Assembly (NCBI GenBank): GCA_021299875.1
Contig: JAJTEW010000005.1
Location: 1 to 64,000 of the forward strand
Length of the DNA stretch: 64,000 nucleotides
Origin: Comamonadaceae bacterium
GTDB taxonomy: Bacteria; Pseudomonadota; Gammaproteobacteria; Burkholderiales; Burkholderiaceae_C
Direction of reading: 5' to 3'
Shown here: one piece after another, positions 1 to 11,183 of the stretch
How positions within the stretch are numbered: the first letter of the stretch is position 1
How the letters are laid out: every line of letters begins with the position of its first letter
Translations under genes and position numbers: made by a program
Notes under the pieces: generated by a model
Database searches by the model: none
The model's input: the letters and a program-made list of their open reading frames with translations, nothing else
What the model was told of the DNA's origin: nothing

Positions 1-124
1 CTTGCTGGTCACCGCTCAATCAGCACTACCGCTGCGTATCTTTATAGCAGCCCGAGTCAGTTAAAGGCAGCTGTCGAGCTGGTTTGAGCGTTAGTTCGAA
101 TCCCTTTTAGACCGCCAAGACTAT

Positions 125-170
125 TTCGAACTGATTCCAAGTAGTTCGAACAGATTGCAATCCGTTAGGG
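125..170. repeat. Three 20-bp tandem units beginning TTCGAA/TTAGGG
   Basis: TTCGAA occurs at 125 and 145, and a degenerate unit starts at 165, so the period is exactly 20 bp. A further TTCGAA lies at 95. The same layout is found downstream of the second HTH gene. The units sit just past the 3' end of the HTH gene. They could be protein-binding iterons or a recombination site; nothing in the sequence decides between these. Confidence 0.6.
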
Positions 171-187
171 CCTCCTTGGGTGCGCTC

Positions 188-520
188 CTAGAACGTTTTC
201 CGGATCAGACAGGCTTCTTGATAGGCCTCAATGTCTTTGAGCCGGTACAAAACTTTCCCCACGATCTTCAAGTACTGCGGGCCCTCGCCGACGGTGCGCC
301 AGCGCTGAAGGCGTGCGACTGAACACACCCAGCGATCGGCGAGCATTATTTCGGTCAGTAGCTGGCGGGCAGGTTCGGCTGGGACCTCTGGAACCAACAT
401 TTGGGGCTCGAACTTGGGTTCGTTGGCTGCGGATTTGGCGATGCCACTGGACAGGGCGTCCAGAACGTCGCCCATTTTTTCAGCCAGTGGGTTCGAAGAT
501 GAGGTGTTGTTAGTAGCCAT
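188..520 (-). CDS. Small HTH protein of excisionase/AlpA type, copy 1
   Basis: This is a 110-residue protein. Residues about 58-100 (LADRWVCSVARLQRWR, then a wing with GPQYLKIVGKVLYRLKDIEAY) fit the MerR-like winged HTH found in excisionases and AlpA-type proteins. The first 50 residues are low in complexity and probably disordered. A clear AAGGAG ribosome site precedes the ATG. A second copy at 5288-5620 differs at nine residues, only one of them inside the HTH, so the DNA-binding part has been conserved. A role as recombination directionality factor or as repressor of the array is inference; no integrase is in the window. Confidence 0.7.
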   Translation of the reverse strand: MATNNTSSSNPLAEKMGDVLDALSSGIAKSAANEPKFEPQMLVPEVPAEPARQLLTEIMLADRWVCSVARLQRWRTVGEGPQYLKIVGKVLYRLKDIEAYQEACLIRKTF

Positions 521-537
521 GGACTTGCTCCTTGATG

Positions 538-562
538 CCTATATGCAGTGGTTTCATATAGG
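538..562. promoter_or_regulatory. Operator-like palindrome upstream of HTH gene copy 1
   Basis: CCTATATG-N9-CATATAGG is a perfect inverted repeat with 8-bp arms lying just upstream of the ribosome site of the HTH gene. It is preserved unchanged in the second copy. Its place and symmetry fit an autoregulatory operator. Binding by the adjacent HTH protein is an inference. Confidence 0.5.
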
Positions 563-666
563 TTCATACCGGTTGGCTGTGCTTTTTTCTCAGCGGGGTG
601 GATTGGTGCATCCCACGGGTAAGCATTAGCTTCTGACGATGTTTTGAATTGCTAACAAGTTCAGAT

Positions 667-1518
667 TTACTTATTCCAACCCCATCGTTCCATCTCACGT
701 CTATCACGTGCCATTTCGGCTTCAATAGAGTCTCTTGGCAACTGTCTGAGGCAATCCTCCATGGCTTGTGGATCGAGCTTTTCAGCCTTTGGTGGAGTTG
801 CCACCGTTTGTGGTGATTTGCCATCCCACGCAAACGGGTTTCGAAAAACAGGCGGATCCGGCAAGCAGTCATCTTTGTAACTCGGTGGACCGTCAGAAGC
901 AAACGGCGTGAACGAGATTGTTTTCTCAAAAATAAGCGGCTTTCCTGTTGGGGTCGGCGGCAGTGACGGCATGTTTTCAACCGCCTTGCGCGCCAGTTGC
1001 TCGGCCACTGCGGACGTCGTCCAAATGGTTTCCAACTTGGCCAGTGTCCCGTCGGGTGCAATTTCAATCCTGAAACGAACGTAACCTTGATCAGGCCCTT
1101 CGACAACAGTACCCATCATGCTGCGCACCTGTTGGCCCCAGTTGTACCGATAGCCTTTGCTGTTTTTGTTTGTGTAACTTCCCGCAAAAGCCCATTCTTC
1201 TGCTGTTGGCGCTGAAGGCGCTTCCATGGTGGCTGGCTCTTTGGCTGGCGGTGACCTGTCTGTCGACTCAGTGATTGGGGCAATGCCGAGTGCTGTTGGG
1301 TTTGGTGAATCGATCGCTGGCGAAAGTTCCTGGCTCCCCATGGGTAGGTCATCTTGCGGTGGTGGCAACACCTGCATGAAGACGATTCGACTTGGGGAAG
1401 ATTCTTTGTCGGCACTACGGAAGCCGAACTGATAACCGCTGACCAACGCCAAGACTGCAGCATGCAATGCCAAGCTGAACAAAACTGCAACGACGTTCGG
1501 GCGATCAACTGCCAGCAT
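667..1518 (-). CDS. TonB-like energy-transducer protein
   Basis: The protein has one N-terminal membrane helix (about residues 10-28, with the Ser/His pattern VLFSLALHAAV seen in TonB anchors), a long Pro/Ser/Glu-rich periplasmic linker, and a TonB-C-like domain at about residues 120-205 (GYVRFRIEIAPDGTL and ARKAVENMPSLP). About 80 further residues without a recognised fold follow. TonB proteins pass energy from ExbBD to outer-membrane receptors, but no exbB, exbD or receptor gene is nearby. An in-frame TTG lies three codons upstream; I prefer the ATG, though neither has a good ribosome site. Confidence in the TonB fold is moderate. Confidence 0.6.
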   Translation of the reverse strand: MLAVDRPNVVAVLFSLALHAAVLALVSGYQFGFRSADKESSPSRIVFMQVLPPPQDDLPMGSQELSPAIDSPNPTALGIAPITESTDRSPPAKEPATMEAPSAPTAEEWAFAGSYTNKNSKGYRYNWGQQVRSMMGTVVEGPDQGYVRFRIEIAPDGTLAKLETIWTTSAVAEQLARKAVENMPSLPPTPTGKPLIFEKTISFTPFASDGPPSYKDDCLPDPPVFRNPFAWDGKSPQTVATPPKAEKLDPQAMEDCLRQLPRDSIEAEMARDRREMERWGWNK

Positions 1519-1630
1519 GTGTTTCAAAAAACACTGTCTGGATCAAAAGACCATTCGTAAATTTCCATCCCCACGAGATCCCTAACTCGTAAAGTGCAAT
1601 TTCGACGAATGCTCCACAACAGCGACCACA

Positions 1631-2569
1631 TTACTCACGCTCGACCTCAAGGTAGGTGCGGCTGGCGTTTCCCGGGTGCAACTCAGCTGCGTTTGCCAGG
1701 TTCATGAAAGGCTTGACGTTGAATGACTTGACCGCTTCGCTAATGTCTACACCTTGCTCCACAGCGCGTTGCATGTGTGAACGCATGGCTTGCAAATAAT
1801 CGTGGCTTTGTGCCTTGGCTGTTTTGCTGTCAGTGATGCGCCCATGCCCTGGAACAATGCGTTTTGGATTCCATTGAGCCAAAGCGTTGAGGGCCTCTAC
1901 CCATGCCCGCGTGCTGCTCACAGGCAAAACTGATAGCAAACGGTCCACATAAACAATGTCACCCGAGAAAGCCACTTGGACGTGGGGCAGCCACACCATC
2001 AAGTCGCCAGGAGTGTGGCCACCCCCGCGATGGCGAAACTCGAAAACGGTACCGCCGAGCTCCAATCGCGCTTCAGGCCCCTGCAGCAGTCTGCTGGGAA
2101 AGCTCAGCTCCGTTCCATCTGCAGCAGGTCCCAGTAAGGTGCGAAGTGCAGCGAACTGATCGCCGCCGCGCGAGCGCATGTCCGGCACAGCTGCAGCGTG
2201 GGCAATCAACTCAGCCCCTTGTGCCTTGAAGTAGCCATTGCCCAGCCATCGATGATCCTGTCCGCCCGTGTTGATGACCCAGCGTACGGGCTGCTGTGTC
2301 ACTCGGCGCACTGCTTCGTGGATGGCACGAGCGGTTTGAAACGTCGAACCACTGTCAATCAGTACGGCACCGCCTGATGTAAGGACCAGCCCAAGGTTAG
2401 CATTCAGGCCCTGGTTGGCCACCGTTCGACCGCCGATATCGCCCACGTAAGCGTAAACGCCGTCCGCCACGGGCTCAAAGCGAACCTCCACAGCCGATGC
2501 CCACATCGTCTGGACTGCAAAAAAACTCACCAACAGCCGAGTCAAAACCCGGCGCGACATCATGAACAT
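1631..2569 (-). CDS. Metallo-beta-lactamase-fold hydrolase, exported
   Basis: A Sec signal peptide (RRVLTRLLVSFFAVQTMWASA) precedes an MBL fold. The HxHxDH metal motif reads NTGGQDHRWLGN, so two histidines are replaced by Gly and Gln while the Asp-His pair stays. Later ligand motifs are present (GGGHTPGD, FSGDIVYVD, VPGHGRI). The start chosen has GAGAG upstream and lies after the chrA stop; the longer reading frame would overlap chrA. The gene is last in a chrB-chrA-MBL operon. The family resembles the periplasmic zinc hydrolases annotated with quinoprotein relays; the substrate is unknown. Confidence 0.75.
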   Translation of the reverse strand: MFMMSRRVLTRLLVSFFAVQTMWASAVEVRFEPVADGVYAYVGDIGGRTVANQGLNANLGLVLTSGGAVLIDSGSTFQTARAIHEAVRRVTQQPVRWVINTGGQDHRWLGNGYFKAQGAELIAHAAAVPDMRSRGGDQFAALRTLLGPAADGTELSFPSRLLQGPEARLELGGTVFEFRHRGGGHTPGDLMVWLPHVQVAFSGDIVYVDRLLSVLPVSSTRAWVEALNALAQWNPKRIVPGHGRITDSKTAKAQSHDYLQAMRSHMQRAVEQGVDISEAVKSFNVKPFMNLANAAELHPGNASRTYLEVERE

Positions 2570-2609
2570 CTTTAACTCTCCATCACAAAATATCGATGAC
2601 CTGTATCCC

Positions 2610-3989
2610 TCAGCCCAGCAGGGGGAACAGCCAGGACACCGCCAAGCCAACCAGAGCACTACCTGTCAGCAGCGTCATGACGCCAACCTTGAAGCGAAAG
2701 AGCGCCACTGCAGCACCAGCGGCAATTAAAGCCGACATCAGATCGAACCTTCCCTCGAATCCTTGGGGCCAGAGGACATGGTGGGCAAAAAACATGGCCA
2801 GATTCAAGATCACGCCCACCACCGCCGCCGTGATCGCTGACAGGGGTGCGGTGAATCCCAGCTTACCGTGGGTGGCCTCGACCACCGGACCACCGGCCAA
2901 AATGAAGATGAATGAGGGCAGGAAGGTAAAAAAAGTCACCACGGTAGCGGCCAACGCCCCACCCAGAAACAGGGCGTCCGGGCCTGATACCTCTTTCAAC
3001 CAGCCACCCAGAAAGCCGACAAAGGCAACCACCATGATCAGCGGGCCCGGCGTTGTTTCGCCCAGGGCCAGGCCATCGATCATTTGCGGACCGCTAAGCC
3101 ACTGGTGGGTGTCGACTGCCCCTTGATAGACGTAGGGCAAGACGGCATAGGCTCCGCCGAAAGTCAGTAGTGCTGCTTTGGTGAAAAACCAGCCCATTTG
3201 CGTCAAAGTGCCCTCCAGGCCGTTGACCGCGATCAGTGTCACCATCGCCAGCAACCACAGCCCGAGACCTACAAGGAGAACTTTCAAAAGTCTGGCCCGA
3301 GAAAACTTTGCGTGCAAAGGTGTAGGCGTATGGTCGTCGATCAGTGCGGGGCCATAACTGGTTTTGTTTGAGCCATGTCCGCCGCCGAGAGTAAAAACAT
3401 CGGGCCAGCGTCGCGAGCCCAACCAACCGACCAAAGCAGCTGCGAGAACGATGGCTGGAAACGGTGTGTCAAATGCAAAAATCGCGATGAACGAAGCTGC
3501 GGCTATGGCCCACATCCAACGATTTTTCAACGCCCTTGTTCCAATGCGATGGGCGGCGTGCAGTACCAGCGCAGTCACTGCGGGCTTGAGTCCATAGAAG
3601 ATACCGGCTACCAGCGGAACGTCGCCAAAGCGCAGGTAAATCCAGCTCAGTGTGATCAGGATGAAAAGCGAGGGCAACACAAACAGTGCGCCAGCGACGA
3701 TACCGCCCCATGTACGGTGCATGAGCCAGCCGATATAGGTGGCAAGTTGCTGCGCCTCCGGGCCTGGGAGAAGCATGCAGTAGTTCAGTGCGTGCAAAAA
3801 ACGCTGCTCGCTGATCCAGCGCCTGCGCTCCACCAGCTCAGTGTGCATGATGGCAATCTGCCCGGCTGGGCCACCGAAGCTGACAAAGCCAAGCTTGAGC
3901 CAAAAACGAAAGGCCTCGCCAAAGCTCACCGGCGCGGGTGGCATATCGGGTTCGGTGGGAATTTTTGATGTGACGGGATCGAGGTTCAT
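2610..3989 (-). CDS. chrA: Chromate efflux transporter ChrA (two CHR domains)
   Basis: This 459-residue inner-membrane protein has two homologous CHR halves, as usual for long-chain ChrA. The N-terminal half carries [12 protein letters not shown] and [15 protein letters not shown]; the C-terminal half carries [14 protein letters not shown] and [16 protein letters not shown]. ChrA exports chromate using the proton gradient. Its start codon overlaps the chrB stop by four bases (ATGA), so the two are translationally coupled. About ten or more hydrophobic segments are visible. The assignment is firm. Confidence 0.95.
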
Positions 3990-4930
3990 TCAGATATTCC
4001 TGGGGCGGCATAGAGCGCATCAAAGACCAGGGCAGCTGCTTGAGCCAGAGCATCATCGTTGGTGTGGACCTCCCGCAGTCCTGCCAAAACGAGTTCCAGT
4101 CCAGCTGCCTCTGCAACGGGAATTCCGCCAACGTCCAGAAAATGAACAGCACGGGCAATTCGCTGCAGCTGCTGATCCGAATCCAATCCGAAGCTCGCCG
4201 CCAATACCTCAAAGCTCACGCGCGAGCCAATATGTGTGAATCGGGCACCGTCAAAGTCAAATCCCAAAACGCCGCGCGGTGGAGGTGTCGCACCCGCAGG
4301 GTCGGCAAGCCAAATAAAAGATGCTTCTGGGTCAATGAAGCGACGAATTAGCCAAGCGCAAGCCAGGCGATCTACCCAAGGGCGAGAACGTGTCGCCCAG
4401 CGCTTTCCCTTGAATTTGAGAGAGTCAAGGCGCGCGATGCCATGACTTGGCTGCGCCTTCGGCTCACCCTTTGAAAATCGAGTGTCAAGAGTTTGGCGCA
4501 AATCATCAAGTTCAGCTTGTGCCTGTTGGGCGGCAGCGCCAGGGTAGTAATCAAGACGGCGCAACACTTGCAGTGATTCTGTGACCCCCCGCCAGCGACG
4601 CCTAGCTTCAGTTTCGTCAAGTCCCGGGAGTAAGGCGTTCAGCGCCTCCACTTCAACATGCCATTCGGCATAAGATTTGGTGCGGTCAAACAAGGCTAGC
4701 ACTTCGGTGCGCATTGCTTCGTCATGAGTTGAAAGTTGCAGCACATGCGCCTGACCACCGTTCTCGCGTACCTCAGAAACTAGCGGATCGAACAATTCAG
4801 CGTGAGACTCAGGCAGCAAATAAACGCCATCACGCAATGAAGGGCACCCAAGAGTTTTGAGCGCACGCCAAATGCGCAGGCGAATTGCCTTCGGTTGCGT
4901 TGGCAGGGTGAGAAAAAGAGCGCTCCACAT
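3986..4930 (-). CDS. chrB: ChrB, chromate-responsive resistance protein
   Basis: This 314-residue protein has the ChrB N-terminal region ([23 protein letters not shown]) and the C-terminal ChrB domain ([21 protein letters not shown]). ChrB is known to act as a chromate-sensing regulator of chr operons and is needed for full resistance. It is the first gene of chrB-chrA-MBL. No Shine-Dalgarno sequence precedes the ATG. Instead TATACT lies nine bases upstream inside an imperfect palindrome, which suggests a leaderless transcript controlled through that palindrome. Confidence 0.93.
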
Positions 4931-4931
4931 A

Positions 4932-4979
4932 AGTTTGAAGTATATGCCTCAAACTTCGAGGTATACACATCAAAAAACT
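4932..4979. promoter_or_regulatory. Imperfect palindrome and -10 element upstream of chrB
   Basis: Arms of about 20 bases (AGTTTGAAGTATATGCCTC at 4932-4950 and its near complement at 4957-4979) are separated by six bases. On the minus strand the proximal arm contains TATACT, placed so that transcription would begin at or next to the chrB ATG. This fits an operator covering the promoter. Binding by ChrB itself is inferred from known ChrB autoregulation. Confidence 0.5.
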
Positions 4980-5111
4980 GGAGGTTAAATTAATAAACTT
5001 TTATTGGATGAGCAAACGTCCGCTTTGGGTCGAAAGGGCACAGTGGAGCGACCTATCAGCTTCAAATTCTGGATAACTTCAACACAGATGTTCTGAAAAC
5101 TCTTTTAACAA

Positions 5112-5195
5112 GAAGATGTCTCAACATTTAGAATGCAGACTTAAACCCCAAGTGCTTAATCGGCTTGTCCTTGGGAAACTTAGGCGGTTTGTGAT
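5112..5195 (-). repeat. R2 repeat, copy 1: fossil 3' end of a gene
   Basis: The 84 bases match 7821-7904 at 77 positions. Read on the minus strand they encode a C-terminal tail (KPPKFPKDKPIKHLGFKSAF followed by TAA), and the other copy keeps the same frame and stop. This suggests both derive from the end of one protein-coding gene whose upstream part is gone. I cannot name the parent protein. Confidence 0.6.
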
Positions 5196-5223
5196 GAAGC
5201 ATGTTCTGCTCCGCCAAGACTAT

Positions 5224-5269
5224 TTCGAACTGATTCCAATTCGTTCGAACAATTTACAACTCGTTCGGG
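5224..5269. repeat. 20-bp tandem units, second copy
   Basis: TTCGAA at 5224 and 5244 and TTCGGG at 5264 repeat the 20-bp period seen at 125-170. Unit sequences differ from copy 1 in the second half, while the TTCGAAC head and the spacing are kept. Confidence 0.55.
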
Positions 5270-5287
5270 GCCTCTTTGGGTACGCCC

Positions 5288-5620
5288 CTAGAGCACTTTC
5301 CGGATCAGACAGGCTTCTTCATAGGCCTCAATGTCTTTGAGCCGGTACAAAACTTTCCCCACGATTTTCAAGTACTGCGGCCCCTCGCCGACGGTGCGCC
5401 AGCGCTGAAGTCGCGCGACTGAACACACCCAGCGATCGGCGAGCATTATTTCGGTCAGGAGTTGACGGGTAGGTTCGGCCGGGACCTCTGCAACCAGGAG
5501 TTGGGGCTCGAACTTGGGTTCGTTGGCTGCGGTTTTGGCGATGCCGCTGGACAGGACGTCCAGCACGTCACCCATTTTTTCAGCCCGTGGGTTCGAAGAT
5601 GAGGTGTTGTTAGTAGCCAT
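5288..5620 (-). CDS. Small HTH protein of excisionase/AlpA type, copy 2
   Basis: Paralogue of the protein at 188-520, of the same 110-residue length, with nine substitutions. The HTH/wing region is unchanged apart from one Gln-to-Glu change near the end, and the other changes fall in the flexible N-terminal half or the last residues. The upstream ribosome site and palindrome are identical. Coding selection on both copies argues that they are expressed proteins. The function is inferred only from the HTH fold. Confidence 0.7.
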   Translation of the reverse strand: MATNNTSSSNPRAEKMGDVLDVLSSGIAKTAANEPKFEPQLLVAEVPAEPTRQLLTEIMLADRWVCSVARLQRWRTVGEGPQYLKIVGKVLYRLKDIEAYEEACLIRKVL

Positions 5621-5637
5621 GGCCTTGCTCCTTGATG

Positions 5638-5662
5638 CCTATATGCAGTGGTTTCATATAGG
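5638..5662. promoter_or_regulatory. Operator-like palindrome upstream of HTH gene copy 2
   Basis: Identical CCTATATG-N9-CATATAGG at the same distance from the start codon as in copy 1. Confidence 0.5.
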
Positions 5663-5770
5663 TTCATACCGGTTGGCTAGGTGTTTTTTCTCAGCGGGGG
5701 GGTTAGTGCATGCACGGGCAAGCATGGCCCTTGCAGTTTCGCAATCCGACCACACGTGGGACCAAGTGAC

Positions 5771-6259
5771 TCAGATTGCTATTCTTTGCACCGCTGACAA
5801 GTAATCTGCACCTCTGGCCTCAGCAAATAGGTCCAGCGTCAGAGTGAGTGCAGCCTGCAATACGAGCCCTACGCCAATGCCCGCTGCCATGTCGTGGCGC
5901 TGCAAAAAGGCAATCATCCCGACACCTATGATCAGCAGCAGCATTTCGATTCCTTTGTAGATCGAAAAGTTTTTCATGACGGTCTGCATGCGGGTGGTTT
6001 CCTCGGCTTTTAGTACCGAAGGGTTCAACTGCAACTGCGCGCTCAAGGTTGACACTTGCAAGTAGGTGCGGAGGTATACGGTGCCACCCACCACTATCTG
6101 CATCAAACCAATGACTACCAGCGGATAGGCCATAGACTTCAGGCGGTGCCCATTCACCCAGAGCCAGACGCTGATAGCTAAGGCCAGAAGGCCAACGGCA
6201 ATAAAAATCACGCTCTCTTGCTTCTCTGCGACGAAGTAGCTGTTCATGTTATCAATCAT
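5771..6259 (-). CDS. Four-helix membrane protein, function unknown
   Basis: This 162-residue protein has four hydrophobic segments, at about residues 16-35 (VIFIAVGLLALAISVWLWV), 44-64, 103-120 and 125-142. I do not recognise the family. It starts ten bases after the short-chain dehydrogenase stop on the same strand, so the two are probably co-transcribed from the MerR-type promoter at 7103-7133. An in-frame ATG four codons in is an alternative start; neither has a clear ribosome site. Confidence 0.6.
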   Translation of the reverse strand: MIDNMNSYFVAEKQESVIFIAVGLLALAISVWLWVNGHRLKSMAYPLVVIGLMQIVVGGTVYLRTYLQVSTLSAQLQLNPSVLKAEETTRMQTVMKNFSIYKGIEMLLLIIGVGMIAFLQRHDMAAGIGVGLVLQAALTLTLDLFAEARGADYLSAVQRIAI

Positions 6260-6269
6260 GGTGTTGGCT

Positions 6270-7067
6270 TTATGAGATGGGTCTGGTCAAAATTTTCACC
6301 ACCTTAGTGGCCAGATTTCGCGGCGTGAAACGCATGCTTTGGGCCATCGCCCAATTGACGAAGCCAGGGATGTAGACGCGCTGTCCGCGTTGCATGGCGC
6401 GGTAGCCCAATTCAGCAACTTCCTCAGACGTGGGCAGTTTCTTGCCTTTAATCAGGGCAGAGTTTCCAAGGTCAGCCTTGTCCTGAAAACCTGAAGCTGT
6501 TGGGCCGGGGCACAGTGCAGTGACAGTTACGCCTGTGTCTTCCAACTCCGATGCAATAGCTTCTGAAAAGCTAAGAACGAAAGATTTGGTGGCGTAGTAC
6601 ACCGCCATGTAGGGGCCTGGCTGAAAGGCCGCTGTGGAGGCTGTGTTGAGAATTTTGCCGCGTGTCGCCAAGAGATCTGGCAGGAAAAGCTTGGTCAATA
6701 CAACGACTGTGTTCATGTTGAGCTGCATCATGGCCAGCTCAGACATCAATGCAGAGTCTTTGAACTCGCCAAAGGCCCCGTATCCAGCGTTATTCACTAG
6801 CGCACTCAGAACGATACCCCGCGCTTTGATATCGGCATGCAAACCTGCGGCACCATCGTGGGTCTCCAAGTCCGCGGCAATGACAGTGACAGTAACCTTA
6901 TAAGTCCGTTGCAGCTCATCGGCCAAGGCCTGCATTTTGGCTACGCCTCGGGCTGCCAGCACGAGCTGATAGCCATCATGCGCAAATTGGTGGGCTAGCG
7001 CTTTGCCGATACCAGATGAAGCGCCAGTGATGAGCGCGGTTTTGTTGGATGTTGATAGTGTGGTCAA
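6270..7067 (-). CDS. Short-chain dehydrogenase/reductase
   Basis: This is a classical SDR of 265 residues. The cofactor motif GASSGIGKA is at about residues 15-23, NNAGYGAFG at about 91-99, and the catalytic Ser-Tyr-Lys are in STAAF...YYATKS. It oxidises or reduces an unidentified carbonyl with NAD(P). The frame opens with TTG, well placed seven bases after GGAG, with no better start. It is divergent from a merR gene and is preceded by a 19-bp-spacer promoter typical of MerR-activated genes, so the MerR protein probably induces it. Confidence 0.85.
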   Translation of the reverse strand: MTTLSTSNKTALITGASSGIGKALAHQFAHDGYQLVLAARGVAKMQALADELQRTYKVTVTVIAADLETHDGAAGLHADIKARGIVLSALVNNAGYGAFGEFKDSALMSELAMMQLNMNTVVVLTKLFLPDLLATRGKILNTASTAAFQPGPYMAVYYATKSFVLSFSEAIASELEDTGVTVTALCPGPTASGFQDKADLGNSALIKGKKLPTSEEVAELGYRAMQRGQRVYIPGFVNWAMAQSMRFTPRNLATKVVKILTRPIS

Positions 7068-7102
7068 GATTATTCTCCATAGTCGTTTTGTCGATTAGGA
7101 GA

Positions 7103-7133
7103 TTAAAAACCCGGTAGTACGGTGCCAGGTCAA
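7103..7133 (-). promoter_or_regulatory. MerR-type promoter toward the dehydrogenase
   Basis: On the minus strand, TTGACC and TTTTAA are separated by 19 bases. The spacer holds the dyad CCTGGCACC...ACTACCGGG. An overlong 19-bp spacer with a dyad is characteristic of promoters activated by MerR-family proteins. Confidence 0.65.
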
Positions 7134-7169
7134 GACATTTCTTTCCCTTGATTTGGTGAACACAAACAC

Positions 7170-7200
7170 TTGACCTGGTACCAAGGTACCGGGTTTAACA
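7170..7200 (+). promoter_or_regulatory. MerR-type promoter toward merR
   Basis: TTGACC-N19-TTAACA, with the spacer dyad CCTGGTACC-AA-GGTACCGGG. It matches the divergent promoter at 7103-7133 base for base over most of the element, so one regulator probably controls both. A leader of about 100 bases follows before the merR ATG. Confidence 0.65.
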
Positions 7201-7309
7201 TGCGCTGAGGCTATGTAGTCGTCCAAGCTACTCCGAACTTAACTTGGATTAACAGCCTTGACGCAGGCTCCAGGGGAACGCCCCAGCTCTCAGTCACCGG
7301 AAACAAACT

Positions 7310-7771
7310 ATGAAAAGCGTAATTACCGTAAAGGCATTCAAGACTTTGCAGACGACCAGCGCCTTGTGCAAGGCGGCCAACGTGACCCGTGGTCAATTGC
7401 GCTTGTATGAAGAAGAAGGGCTGATTGCACCTCAGAGCAGAACGGAAGCTGGCTATCGCCAATATGGCAGCGAAACGCTGGACCGGCTCAGGGTCATATT
7501 GCATCTGAAGGAACTCGGCCTCACGCTGGCCGAAATCGCACTCCTATTGTCTGATCGCGATCACGGCGTCCTCGATGAACAAGCGATACAGCAACTGGCG
7601 GGAGAGGTATTGTCGAAAATTGATGAACGCATTGCCGGTCTGCAAGTTATTCGAGGCTATATGGCTCCGGTTGCCATGGGTGACATGAGCGTGTTGCAGG
7701 ACGATGACTGCAACTTCGTCTTTGAATTCATGACCGCTCTGTCCGTCGAGAAAACCAAGCGCCGCGCCTGA
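7310..7771 (+). CDS. MerR-family transcriptional regulator
   Basis: This 153-residue protein has an N-terminal MerR winged HTH (SALCKAANVTRGQLRLYEEEGL, residues about 16-37, then GYRQYGSETLDRL), a coiled-coil dimerisation helix at about residues 90-115 and a short C-terminal effector region. Only two cysteines are seen, and no clustered Cys/His metal site, so a metal or redox cluster is not indicated and the inducer is likely organic. It is divergent from the dehydrogenase, with paired MerR-type promoters between them. Confidence 0.88.
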   Translation: MKSVITVKAFKTLQTTSALCKAANVTRGQLRLYEEEGLIAPQSRTEAGYRQYGSETLDRLRVILHLKELGLTLAEIALLLSDRDHGVLDEQAIQQLAGEVLSKIDERIAGLQVIRGYMAPVAMGDMSVLQDDDCNFVFEFMTALSVEKTKRRA

Positions 7772-7820
7772 ACCTGACGTTTAGGTAAGGTGTGTTTTAT
7801 CCAGACCGGCTACTCGAATT

Positions 7821-7904
7821 GAAGATGTCTCAACATTTAGAATGCTGACTTAGACCCCAAGTGCTTAATCGGCTGGTCCTTGGGGGATTTAGGCGGTTTG
7901 CGAT
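7821..7904 (-). repeat. R2 repeat, copy 2: fossil 3' end of a gene
   Basis: Matches 5112-5195 at 77 of 84 bases and keeps the minus-strand tail ending HLGSKSAF and a stop. It marks the right edge of the second module. Within it CCCCAAG and CTTGGGG form a dyad with a 17-base spacer. Confidence 0.6.
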
Positions 7905-7939
7905 CTGGTATCTTCTAGCCCGCCAGTGACCCAATAGAT

Positions 7940-7965
7940 ATGCGCCTTTCGGCGCATTTTTTATT
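7940..7965 (+). terminator. Rho-independent terminator
   Basis: ATGCGCC-TTTC-GGCGCAT followed by TTTTT. It lies about 170 bases after merR and just outside R2 copy 2, so it may end merR transcription or mark the border of the module. Confidence 0.75.
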
Positions 7966-8328
7966 TCTACCCCCCCACCCCAAATGCAAACAGGGACTGC
8001 TGTCTGCCCTTGCACTTTGATTCGTTGGTCCGATTGTCCTTCTGGACAAAAGCCACTACCCCTAATTTTTGGAAATGTGACGCGCATTGGTTGGCATATT
8101 GGCCGATTTAAGTAAGGGGTGCAAACGGTTAAAGAAGGCTAGGCGCACCACGTACTTCAGCCTGTCTAGACTGATCCTGTGTTGGCCGAGCCGTCAGGCG
8201 ATGACTTCAAACTGAGATGGAAACAGCAAACGCATTGTTCATTTATGTCAAGGTGGCGCAGTATTTGCTTGTGGATTGTATATTCCAACAGGGGCAACAA
8301 TTTGCCATAAGCAAACCTTCATCAACCA

Positions 8329-9735
8329 ATGATCAGTCTTCTTACCAACGTGCCCTCACAATCGGCACAAAGAGCCAGTAAAAGTGTAGATCGTCTGCAT
8401 GCGCAAGCCATGCAACGACTGTCGACCGGTTCAAGGGTCAATGCGGCGAAAGATGATGCAGCGGGTTTGGCGATTGGAAATCGCATGACCTCTACGGTCA
8501 ACACGGGTAACCAATTGATGAAGGGCATAGCCAATGGGCTGAGCTTGGTGCAGGTGGCTGAAGGCAGTTTGCAAAGCATCATTGGACTTTTACAACGCAT
8601 GCGCGAGTTGTCGGTGCAAGCGGTTAACGACACATTGACAGCTTCAGACCGATCTATGCTGAACCAAGAGTTTCAGTCCCTCAACGCTGAAATTGACCGC
8701 ATCAGCCTGAACACCCAGATTTTTGACCGCTACCCCTTGGCCCCCCCCAAAGAGATACCAGTTACAGACCCCACCCCAATTGGCGATACGCAGCCTATTG
8801 ATCAGATTTTGACCGCAGATGCCAAGAGTTTTCCTTCGGGTCTTAAATCGCTGGGCTATATCCCCAAAGGGTTTACTGACGTGACCTTGAATCTAGACTC
8901 GTTTGGCAATGACGATGACATCCAAATATTTTCGGCCGATGGGACGCATTTGTTGGGCACCCCTATTCTCACCAACACCGATCCTGTTTGGTCATCCAAA
9001 GGCATCACAAGCTCTGCGACTGCCAATAGCGAAATCATTAACACGGCCAATGCTTTTGATACTGGGGCCAGCTACGATGGCAGTGTGTTGTCGACTGCGA
9101 CTGCTTATGACATCAACACCCTTGCGAACACCAACGTTTACAAGGGCATGACGATCAAATTCAGTGGTGATGGTCACGCAAGCGGTCAATACCTTGAGAA
9201 GGTCACCATCGATGTGGTGACTGAAAATTTGGTGTTGATGGTGATTGGTAACGGTATTTTTAACGCCAGCGGCACTTGGACAGAACCACCCACAGTGGTT
9301 CCCTCCAGCGACCCCTTTAGTGAGGACACCAGCATTGTTTTGTCTGCCCCACTGGGTCAGTCCATCGAAACCCTGACGATCAAGGCTACGCCCTCCGATA
9401 CCACCTCGCTGGACACAGCCGACAGCCAGATTGCTACGGCCAGTGGTGCTACCGCAGCCATCGGCAAAATCGACCAAGCTATTCAAAAGCTCAATGAAAA
9501 TGCTGTGGGTTACGGTGCATTGGTATCTCGACTAACGAGCGCCGCAGACAATTTGTCGGTGATGGTTTTGCAAGCTGTGGCTTCCCGTTCAAGTATCATG
9601 GACGCCGACTATGCTTTAGAGGCTGCCAAATTGGCTGCGCAGCAAATTCTCAAAGATTCGAGCACCGCCGTGCTGGCACAAGCCAATGCCTTACCCAACA
9701 ACGTCTTGAGTTTGCTCGACCAGCAACTGGGGTGA
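8329..9735 (+). CDS. Flagellin-domain protein
   Basis: This 468-residue protein has the conserved flagellin N-terminal helical domain (residues about 15-135: RLSTGSRVNAAKDDAAGLAI, LQRMRELSVQAVN, LNQEFQSLNAEIDRIS) and C-terminal domain (about 395-468: ASRSSIMDADYALEAAKLAA, ending in VLSLLDQQLG). The middle 250 residues are a Thr/Ser/Asp-rich variable region. The signature resembles flagellin or the hook-filament junction protein FlgL; the ends favour flagellin. No other flagellar gene is nearby and no Shine-Dalgarno sequence is visible, so expression is uncertain. Confidence 0.85.
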   Translation: MISLLTNVPSQSAQRASKSVDRLHAQAMQRLSTGSRVNAAKDDAAGLAIGNRMTSTVNTGNQLMKGIANGLSLVQVAEGSLQSIIGLLQRMRELSVQAVNDTLTASDRSMLNQEFQSLNAEIDRISLNTQIFDRYPLAPPKEIPVTDPTPIGDTQPIDQILTADAKSFPSGLKSLGYIPKGFTDVTLNLDSFGNDDDIQIFSADGTHLLGTPILTNTDPVWSSKGITSSATANSEIINTANAFDTGASYDGSVLSTATAYDINTLANTNVYKGMTIKFSGDGHASGQYLEKVTIDVVTENLVLMVIGNGIFNASGTWTEPPTVVPSSDPFSEDTSIVLSAPLGQSIETLTIKATPSDTTSLDTADSQIATASGATAAIGKIDQAIQKLNENAVGYGALVSRLTSAADNLSVMVLQAVASRSSIMDADYALEAAKLAAQQILKDSSTAVLAQANALPNNVLSLLDQQLG

Positions 9736-9888
9736 TCCGCCCCACCGAACGTCTGAATTGAAGCGGCTAACCGGTCACGCAAGATCACGACTTAGCTGGG
9801 AATCGGCAAGAATTTGCCGGTGGCATGGCTTCCTCTCCGCCAAACCAAAGACCTCCAACCTGTCCAGCAGGCCGTGAGGCAACCTCAG

Positions 9889-9912
9889 GCCCCGCACCCC
9901 GCGGGGCTTTTT
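9889..9912 (+). terminator. Rho-independent terminator after flagellin
   Basis: GCCCCGC-ACCCC-GCGGGGC followed by TTTTT, about 150 bases after the flagellin stop. Confidence 0.85.
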
Positions 9913-10004
9913 GTTGGGGGCTCCTGATCAGGTGCCGCCCCATTGGCCATGCGTGAGCGGCGCATAACGCTGGCGGGGCATACAGGTCCCGCGGGTGAAG
10001 CTCA

Positions 10005-11183
10005 TCAGGCGAGAACGGGCAGACCCGTGAAGTTGTGCGCGAACACTGCACGCCCCTCGCGAGTACCGGTCATGTAGTTCAAATCTGCAAGCTGCATACG
10101 GCGATCGAACTCACTCTGCCCCGGAAATTGGTGGACCATCGTGCACAGGCCCGCTGAGAACCGCTGGACCAACCACATGCGTTCAAGACAAGTGTCGGCG
10201 TAGCGGTCTAGCCAGCGAGGATCATGGTGTTTGTAGTGTTCCACCAGCGAGCGACCAAGCACCTGGATGTCCGCCATCGCAGAATTCAAACCCTTGGCGC
10301 CTGTGGGGGGAACAATGTGGGCGGCATCGCCGGCCAGGAACAGGCGGCCAAAACGCATGGGTTCACAGATGAAGCTGCGCATGGCGGTGACGGCTTTTTG
10401 CGTGATGCGACCTTCGTTGATGGGGGGCTGCCCATCGACATCGAGCCGCTTGTGCAATGCCGCCCAGATGCGATCGTCTGACCAGTTGTCGGGGCTGTCG
10501 TCAGGTTCGCACTGCAAATACAAGCGGGTGACCTCGGGCGAACGAATGCTCATCATGGCGAAACCATCGGGATGACAACCCCAAGTGATGTCTTGAATGG
10601 CCGGTGGTGCGTCAGCCAAAATGCCCAGCCAAGCAAAGGGGTAAACACGGTCATAAAGCCGCAGCTTGTCGTCTGGGATGGCGCTGCGACTGATGCCCCG
10701 AAAGCCGTCGCATCCTGCAACGAAATCGCAGGACAATTCGAGTGGCTTGCCTTCGGACTCGAAATGGATGACGGGTCGACTGCCCTCTAGGCCTTGGATA
10801 TGCGTCACAGGTGCGTCATAGAAAATCTGGGCACCTGCCGCCTCGCGGACTCGCATCAGATCCGCCACCACTTCGTGCTGTGGATAGACCCAGGCGCTTT
10901 TACCGCCCGATGCCTCGTGGAAGTCCAGCCTGTGAGAGCGGTTGTTGAAGCGAAAATCCAGCGCGTGTTGTTCAAGCGCCATTCGGTCCATGCGCTCACC
11001 CAGGCCAAGCTCGCGCATCATCTCCACAGTACCCTGTTCGAGCACCCCGGCGCGGAGTCGGGAGCGCACGTGGTCTTTCTGCGCGCGTTCAATGATGACC
11101 GACTCGATACCCTCCAGATGCAGCAGGTGCGACAGCATCAACCCCGCGGGCCCAGCGCCAATGATGCCCACTTGTGTCCGCAT
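10005..11183 (-). CDS. pobA: 4-hydroxybenzoate 3-monooxygenase
   Basis: This 392-residue flavoprotein converts 4-hydroxybenzoate and NADPH to protocatechuate, feeding ring cleavage. It shows the FAD dinucleotide motif [16 protein letters not shown] at residues 6-21, [18 protein letters not shown], the DG motif CDGFRGISR and the second FAD motif [19 protein letters not shown]. The length is that of the PobA family. I use the ATG at 11183 rather than the TTG one codon earlier. No protocatechuate genes or PobR regulator are adjacent. Confidence 0.95.

Follow-up and report, generated by a model that had tools for sequence, protein, structure and literature searches.

Gene modules with uniform ends behind tRNA-Ser genes of Comamonadaceae are probably non-autonomous integrative cassettes

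Introduction

In integrons, an integrase gene and the primary site next to it precede adaptive cassettes that are all arrayed in one direction, and the pdif modules of Acinetobacter plasmids are recombinase-free units with fixed ends, varying cargo and sites of the XerC/XerD type. The additive flexible islands of 'Candidatus Methylopumilus' recur at tRNA-Lys ends, repeat the last 20 bp of the gene and range from 330 bp to 42 kb (PMC10872708). Tycheposons, as presented in the same report, are elements of 4-200 kb that carry a tyrosine recombinase inside and bring cargo to tRNA genes (via PMC10872708). The ssrA islands of Dehalococcoides stand in tandem and show repeats of the tmRNA 3' end; as described, 16 of them have a serine-recombinase integration module and 15 are without it (PMC3146451). 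Cis-mobilizable elements (CIMEs) are reported as products of decay that have kept their att sites but no genes for integration or transfer, and they occur in tandem at a target gene (PMC5704250). In this study, we analyse positions 1 to 64,000 of a contig from a Comamonadaceae bacterium (GenBank assembly GCA_021299875.1, contig JAJTEW010000005.1; this whole stretch of 64,000 bp is called the window), where two units with a common head (R1) and a common tail (R2) enclose different cargo genes.

We conclude that these R1-cargo-R2 units, hereafter modules, are non-autonomous integrative cassettes moved in trans by a tyrosine integrase at the 3' ends of tRNA-Ser genes, a reading to which we assign a probability of roughly 0.78. 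Searches of the open-licence PMC literature turned up no description of such a cassette system. The modules have their place among tRNA-attached, integrase-dependent islands, with a cassette-like standard unit. With the 'Ca. Methylopumilus' islands they share freshwater hosts, tRNA-end repeats, metal-resistance and transport cargo and variable size; unlike those islands, as these are described, they have a standard R1/R2 unit and a 6-bp joint, are mostly 1-6 kb long and use four tRNA-Ser isoacceptors in more than one genus (PMC10872708). Like the Dehalococcoides islands, as reported there, they follow one RNA gene in tandem and are bounded by repeats of its 3' end, but their target is tRNA-Ser, the modules hold no integrase match and the adjacent recombinase is of the tyrosine type (PMC3146451). 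With tycheposons, in the outline given of these, they have in common that cargo is placed at tRNA genes and that a tyrosine recombinase is associated; they differ from them in that no integrase match lies within the modules (via PMC10872708). The latter, as judged with a hidden Markov model (HMM) built from five seeds, also sets them apart from the usual tRNA islands of tyrosine integrases.

Results and discussion

Two modules beside an integrase remnant

The two modules lie head to tail at positions 112-7925 (Table 1). Their R1 copies are 91.3% identical over 515 bp and their R2 copies 85.7% over 105 bp, and these alignments confirm a preliminary description of the window in which two consecutive modules of the same order and orientation, but with different cargo, had been noticed. 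The 29-bp start of R1, allowing at most 3 mismatches, has two matches in the window, both exact, where shuffled windows lead one to expect 0.00. The first six bases of R1, CCGCCA, are at the same time the last six of the preceding R2. That description had placed the first R2 at 5112-5195, followed by a gap of 15 bases; the start was right, while R2 really spans the gap to 5216. Its cargo labels are borne out by Pfam matches for the metallo-beta-lactamase-fold protein, ChrA, ChrB, the short-chain dehydrogenase (SDR) and MerR, whereas the proteins labelled TonB-like and membrane protein are without a Pfam match.

The same description held that no transposase or integrase was visible. This does not hold: a tyrosine recombinase gene adjoins the array, and its final 28 residues, ..LAGHRSISTTAAYLYSSPSQLKAAVELV*, are encoded by bases 1-87; the gene is cut, since the window starts at the edge of contig C15 (L, G and C numbers denote loci, genomes and contigs; G000 is the window's own genome). 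A relative at L136, a locus of Limnohabitans strain Rim28 (as is L068), is 89% identical over those 28 residues and complete; it comprises 190 aa with a Phage_integrase domain only, and its gene ends about 25 bp upstream of an R1. Between the stop codon of the window integrase and R1 sits TTCGAATCCCTTTTAGACCGCCA (95-117), a mimic of the tRNA-Ser 3' end. The pattern TTYGAATCC-N8-CCGCCA has a chance expectation of none in the window and occurs at four sites in the whole genome (backward control 0), of which the other three are the 3' ends of tRNA-Ser(CGA), tRNA-Ser(GGA) and tRNA-Ser(GCT). The role of the tRNA-Ser end CCGCCA as joint had been missed as well, and so had the excisionase-like gene in R1.

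Distribution and target sites

When genome contigs were scanned with an alignment of the 110-aa protein encoded in R1, 61 loci came up, mostly from Limnohabitans, other Comamonadaceae or freshwater metagenome bins, with three remote ones from Magnetococcales. Within the window's genus, R1 matches with E<1e-9 are present in 28 of 90 genomes, its own included, although the match in one of these, G422, spans just 77 bp and is perhaps to be discounted; a further 22 genomes (50 of 90 in total), matching only about 37-49 bp with weak E-values, were not counted.

From the collected loci 70 distinct R1 junctions were gathered. The left neighbour of the head is an R2 in 34 cases (L129:876, L133:14546 and L134:8152 were reassigned by eye from 'other' to R2), a tRNA-Ser gene in 21, a tRNA-Ser mimic in eight and some other end in seven. 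ARAGORN confirms tRNA-Ser at all 21 heads (CGA 12, GCT 6, GGA 2, TGA 1; for L058 via its copy L036). Insertion at the tRNA 3' end is precise and leaves the tRNA intact, as seen by ARAGORN on the occupied loci and at one locus that is empty in relatives. The search for R1 and R2 with variable cargo, proposed in the preliminary description, found such modules in many genomes, singly and in arrays; contig C17 of G419 holds eight R1 heads within 56 kb and contig C41 of G437 four modules in a row. Thirty-eight modules were called, 36 of them of 1.0-6.0 kb, and several represent the same cargo in different places; the L129 module (15.9 kb) probably hides a missed joint and the L078 module (635 bp) is doubtful. 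CCGCCA stands at both module ends, the R1 and R2 halves are conserved, and the five-seed integrase HMM gave 0 matches in the 38 modules.

Five heads (L128:19056, L069:1464, L089:10405, L090:8779 and L132:10751) follow other ends, in which TTCGAAT and a CCACCA- or CGCCATC-like tRNA or tmRNA 3' end lie about 50 bp before the joint; these are possibly the tails of other element families.

The same module in different places

Module 1 of the window recurs in Limnohabitans B9-3 (L048), a member of another GTDB genus, where the chrBA module stands alone behind tRNA-Ser. The two are 99.43% identical over 5106 aligned positions, joint to joint, and their flanks 46% and 53%; 40 random pairs gave a mean of 51.8% and a highest value of 56.7%. 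Core DNA by the L048 insertion is 76.5, 73.3 and 66.8% identical to the window's genome in three aligned pieces. The SDR-MerR module of the window is shared with L141 (96.4% over 2716 bp), and further pairs with the same cargo are L128/L051 (96.2% over 1273 bp), L134/L142 (95.4% over 3884 bp) and L130/L057 (92.3% over 2411 bp). Outside identities above the random level (68.7-91.3%) occur in pairs with R1 or R2 as both neighbours and in L141/L147, which has 78% on the right and seems to share a locus. The same module in different places, with sharp edges, supports the idea, raised in the preliminary description, of an element with cargo between fixed ends or of insertion at a preferred joint. 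Its competing view, in which one unit underwent segmental duplication and its cargo was then replaced, fits the likeness of R1 and R2 in both units. We give it next to no credence, however, as both cargoes lie between the same ends at other loci and in other genomes and modules occur singly behind tRNA-Ser genes.

A comparison of close relatives for presence and absence, likewise suggested there, found one occupied site empty in five relatives. In G432 (L147), a module occupies a tRNA-Ser(CGA) locus that runs on without a break in G406, G472, G468, G415 and G469; these empty sites are contiguous at 84-98% identity, the first four genomes having been realigned. The sequence after the last CCGCCA of L147 is that found directly behind the tRNA in the empty sites. 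A terminator-like hairpin, identified by eye, follows the last CCGCCA in five of five tRNA-Ser loci (L048, L053, L058, L064 and L147), and in the window a hairpin with a T-run takes the corresponding place. For the right flank of the window no match (E<=1e-20) was found in the 89 other genomes of the genus.

Outside R1, the window module differs from that of L048 at a single position in 4589 bp, within R1 at 27 in 516, so that R1 was seemingly exchanged separately, perhaps by homologous recombination. Exchange mainly by homologous recombination between R1/R2 ends after DNA uptake, with site-specific recombination rare or ancient, is a reading favoured by these differing histories of R1 and cargo in one module, by the rearranged R1 of the L133 copy and by copies in which homology stops short of the right joint (L130/L057, with 57% at the right end; L049, whose SDR-MerR copy diverges from the others to 56-61% there). 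It is at odds with single modules placed exactly at tRNA-Ser ends of four isoacceptors and with the tested locus that is empty in relatives; as it requires a resident R1/R2, it provides for no first insertion. We consider it unlikely.

Integrase, docking sites and the R1 protein

In the mechanism that we propose, a tyrosine integrase would act in trans on the cassette's single joint, which in a circle would read R2-CCGCCA-R1. The partner of this joint would be a tRNA-Ser 3' end, a tRNA-Ser mimic next to an integrase gene, or the joint of a cassette already in residence, and recombination between the two would yield single insertions or head-to-tail arrays. R1 would provide one half-site (CCGCCAAGACTATTTCGAAC and a further TTCGAA repeat), usually together with the small excisionase-like gene, and R2 the other half.

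A small integrase adjoins five of the eight mimic sites, oriented toward the array in the window, L136 and L143 and divergently in L051 and L145. G416 has a small integrase, then a mimic site and then a czc block without R1. A czc block joined to CCGCCA is also found behind tRNA-Ser(CGA) in the window's own genome; from the tRNA-Ser-like motif onward, the two are 96.6% identical in the first 697 bp and 99.9% in the 1826 bp that come after. With this block behind both sites, the mimic beside the integrase and the tRNA-Ser end behave as equivalents.

The R1 protein of 110 aa has its best PHROG match in PHROG 66, 'excisionase and transcriptional regulator' (E 5.6e-6). Its gene looks to be under constraint, the median dN/dS being 0.28 for 28 open reading frames (ORFs) in 378 pairs (32 distinct ORFs were found, of which 4 of other lengths were dropped). 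An AlphaFold model reached a mean predicted local distance difference test (pLDDT) score of 60.5. Family and position prompt the guess that the protein may serve as directionality factor, presumably in the role of an excisionase.

Several observations weigh against the reading of the modules as cassettes moved in trans. We infer a circular intermediate, none having been directly observed. Three of the eight mimic sites have no integrase match nearby (for L074 only about 600 bp upstream are covered). Homologues of the L136 integrase (E<=1e-15) are present in 17 of the 28 genomes of the genus that have R1, and likewise in 21 of the 62 that lack it (Fisher p 0.02, uncorrected for kinship or completeness). 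G447 and G432 carry modules yet show two PF00589 matches each, none of the small type; these frames of 304-377 aa are by length like XerC/XerD, and both assemblies are drafts. In view of this mixed co-occurrence and of these two genomes, small integrases of the 190-aa kind are presumed rather than established as the agents, and the responsible integrase may be transient in a host. Two full-size integrases reached no better than 5e-4 to 8e-4 with the five-seed HMM, and given this limited sensitivity the integrase negatives are soft. Around distant relatives of the R1 protein, no integrase match was found in 32 loci (about 25 distinct places), most of which cover only 1.5 kb on each side. As to the R1 protein itself, the excisionase match is weak, the HTH_17 match is below cut-off and NCBIfam gave no match. 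In two R1 genes a stop interrupts the aligned part, and five modules have only 46-130 bp of R1 without the excisionase-like gene, which is thus not needed in every module.

The two PF00589 matches each in G447 and G432 also speak for host XerC/XerD as the enzymes that move the modules. XerC/XerD have been proposed as movers of the Acinetobacter pdif modules. The modules studied here differ from the latter in their tRNA-Ser sites and are chromosomal as far as seen; the site, TTCGAA around CCGCCA, matches the tRNA-Ser end and by eye bears no likeness to dif. We hold movement by XerC/XerD to be very improbable.

Tandem elements at the end of a target gene that lack an integrase have been described as CIMEs (PMC5704250), and the modules may be decayed integrative elements of this kind which accreted at tRNA-Ser and are mobile only as passengers of a neighbouring island. 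They are like CIMEs in that they hold no integrase match, keep flanking att sites and stand in tandem, and the arrays of the window, L136 and L143 do adjoin an integrase. Unlike CIMEs as portrayed in that source, they have uniform ends with varying cargo, a constrained small gene and single modules alone in other genomes (PMC5704250); the chrBA module of L048 lies alone behind tRNA-Ser with no integrase HMM match in 20 kb. Among the loci collected, none showed an ancestral element that combines these ends with an integrase. On balance, we regard decay as a somewhat unlikely origin.

Under the reading of cassettes moved in trans, the likeness to integrons lies in an integrase beside a primary site and an array that follows, as in the window, L136, L143, L051 and L145. 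Unlike in integrons, 21 of the 70 heads are behind plain tRNA-Ser genes, the sites are of tRNA-Ser type and most cassettes have a helix-turn-helix gene of their own. The integrase of L136 scores 41.3 bits against the integron integrase model TIGR02249 (integrase_gron), whose cut-off is 265; the window copy comprises 28 residues only. Folding of one window joint as an attC-like hairpin gave a weak signal (z -1.2 on the + strand, -2.2 on the - strand), and many R2 copies, by eye, do not preserve the CCAAG/CTTGG hairpin.

It is conceivable, and we put it forward tentatively, that Comamonadaceae have in common a pool of integrase-free cassettes with a standard attachment end and mostly their own directionality gene, for which tRNA-Ser genes and integrase-borne tRNA-Ser ends would be interchangeable docking sites. 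If so, the system would parallel integrons with double-strand sites, excision control travelling with the cassette and the integrase staying with the platform; and should the small integrases be responsible, cassettes would be captured in a second way, to be compared with that of integrons. Among freshwater bacteria, the modules offer individual adaptive gene sets that lack their own integrase a possible route of transfer; the sets concern chromate, arsenate, TonB uptake, regulators, an RtcR-like regulator and a PIN-domain protein. The combination of R1 head and R2 tail can serve as a search key for such cassettes in genomes and metagenomes.

The small integrases of the genus (L155-L183) are a diverse family present in 38 of 90 genomes at E<=1e-15, and by eye a TTGATTTCATTGA-like stretch precedes the gene in several of them. 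No tRNA-Ser mimic was found in the 200 bp after the other small integrase of the window's genome (C15:182369), and most others inspected were likewise without one. A distant relative of the R1 protein in L040 (G264:C2, about 9505-10298) follows a tmRNA gene at a distance of some 300 bp. It is oriented like the R1 genes behind tRNA-Ser and perhaps belongs to a sister family using ssrA; no direct repeat of at least 20 bp was found in the 10.5 kb behind it.

Cargo and features of the window

Pfam families were assigned in a scan of 68 cargo proteins. Among the families listed (25 of 57 and 25 of 59) are the chromate transporter, ArsC, a molybdate transporter family, TonB receptors, SDR, MerR, TetR and LysR regulators, glutathione transferases, a PIN domain and an RtcR-like CARF protein. 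The last is an RtcR-like CARF-AAA-HTH (helix-turn-helix) protein in the L064 module (4457-10410; PADLOC E 1.1e-183). Genes similar to those of L064 are present at L246:6695-8041, with a viperin match (PADLOC pVip, E 3.8e-13) some kb away.

Table 1. Features at the left end of the window
Feature	Position	Strand	Remarks
Tyrosine recombinase C-terminus, small catalytic-core-only kind	1-87	+	remainder beyond contig edge
tRNA-Ser 3'-end mimic, TTCGAATCC-N8-CCGCCA, 23 bp	95-117	+	presumed attachment site beside integrase
R1 copy 1, module head	112-627	+	CCGCCA core, TTCGAA repeats, excisionase-like gene and its upstream region
Excisionase-like helix-turn-helix protein copy 1, 110 aa	188-520	-	
Cargo 1: 286-aa protein	667-1527	-	no Pfam match; earlier label TonB-like
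Cargo 1: metallo-beta-lactamase-fold protein	1631-2569	-	PF00753
Cargo 1: chromate transporter ChrA	2610-3989	-	PF02417
Cargo 1: ChrB	3986-4930	-	PF09828
R2 copy 1, module tail	5112-5216	+	ends CCGCCA
Joint CCGCCA	5211-5216	+	common to module 1 R2 end and module 2 R1 start
R1 copy 2	5211-5725	+	
Excisionase-like protein copy 2, 110 aa	5288-5620	-	
Cargo 2: membrane protein, 162 aa	5771-6259	-	no Pfam match
Cargo 2: short-chain dehydrogenase (SDR)	6270-7067	-	PF00106
Cargo 2: MerR-family regulator	7310-7771	+	PF13411
R2 copy 2	7821-7925	+	ends CCGCCA (7920-7925)
Hairpin and T-run directly after last CCGCCA	7941-7967	+	by eye; compare hairpins behind occupied tRNA-Ser genes at other loci

Relatives outside the collected genomes were few: a plasmid search gave two records with <60% identity, a phage search none, and a search of viral contigs two protein loci, L245 and L246, of which the L246 contig was matched again by an exact search with the head. 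In both (IMG/VR; contigs classed viral) R1 modules lie beside genes that by eye are lysozyme-like, and these could be prophages sharing the site. In the window, a gene that is flagellin-like by its translation (8329-9735) lies just past the array.

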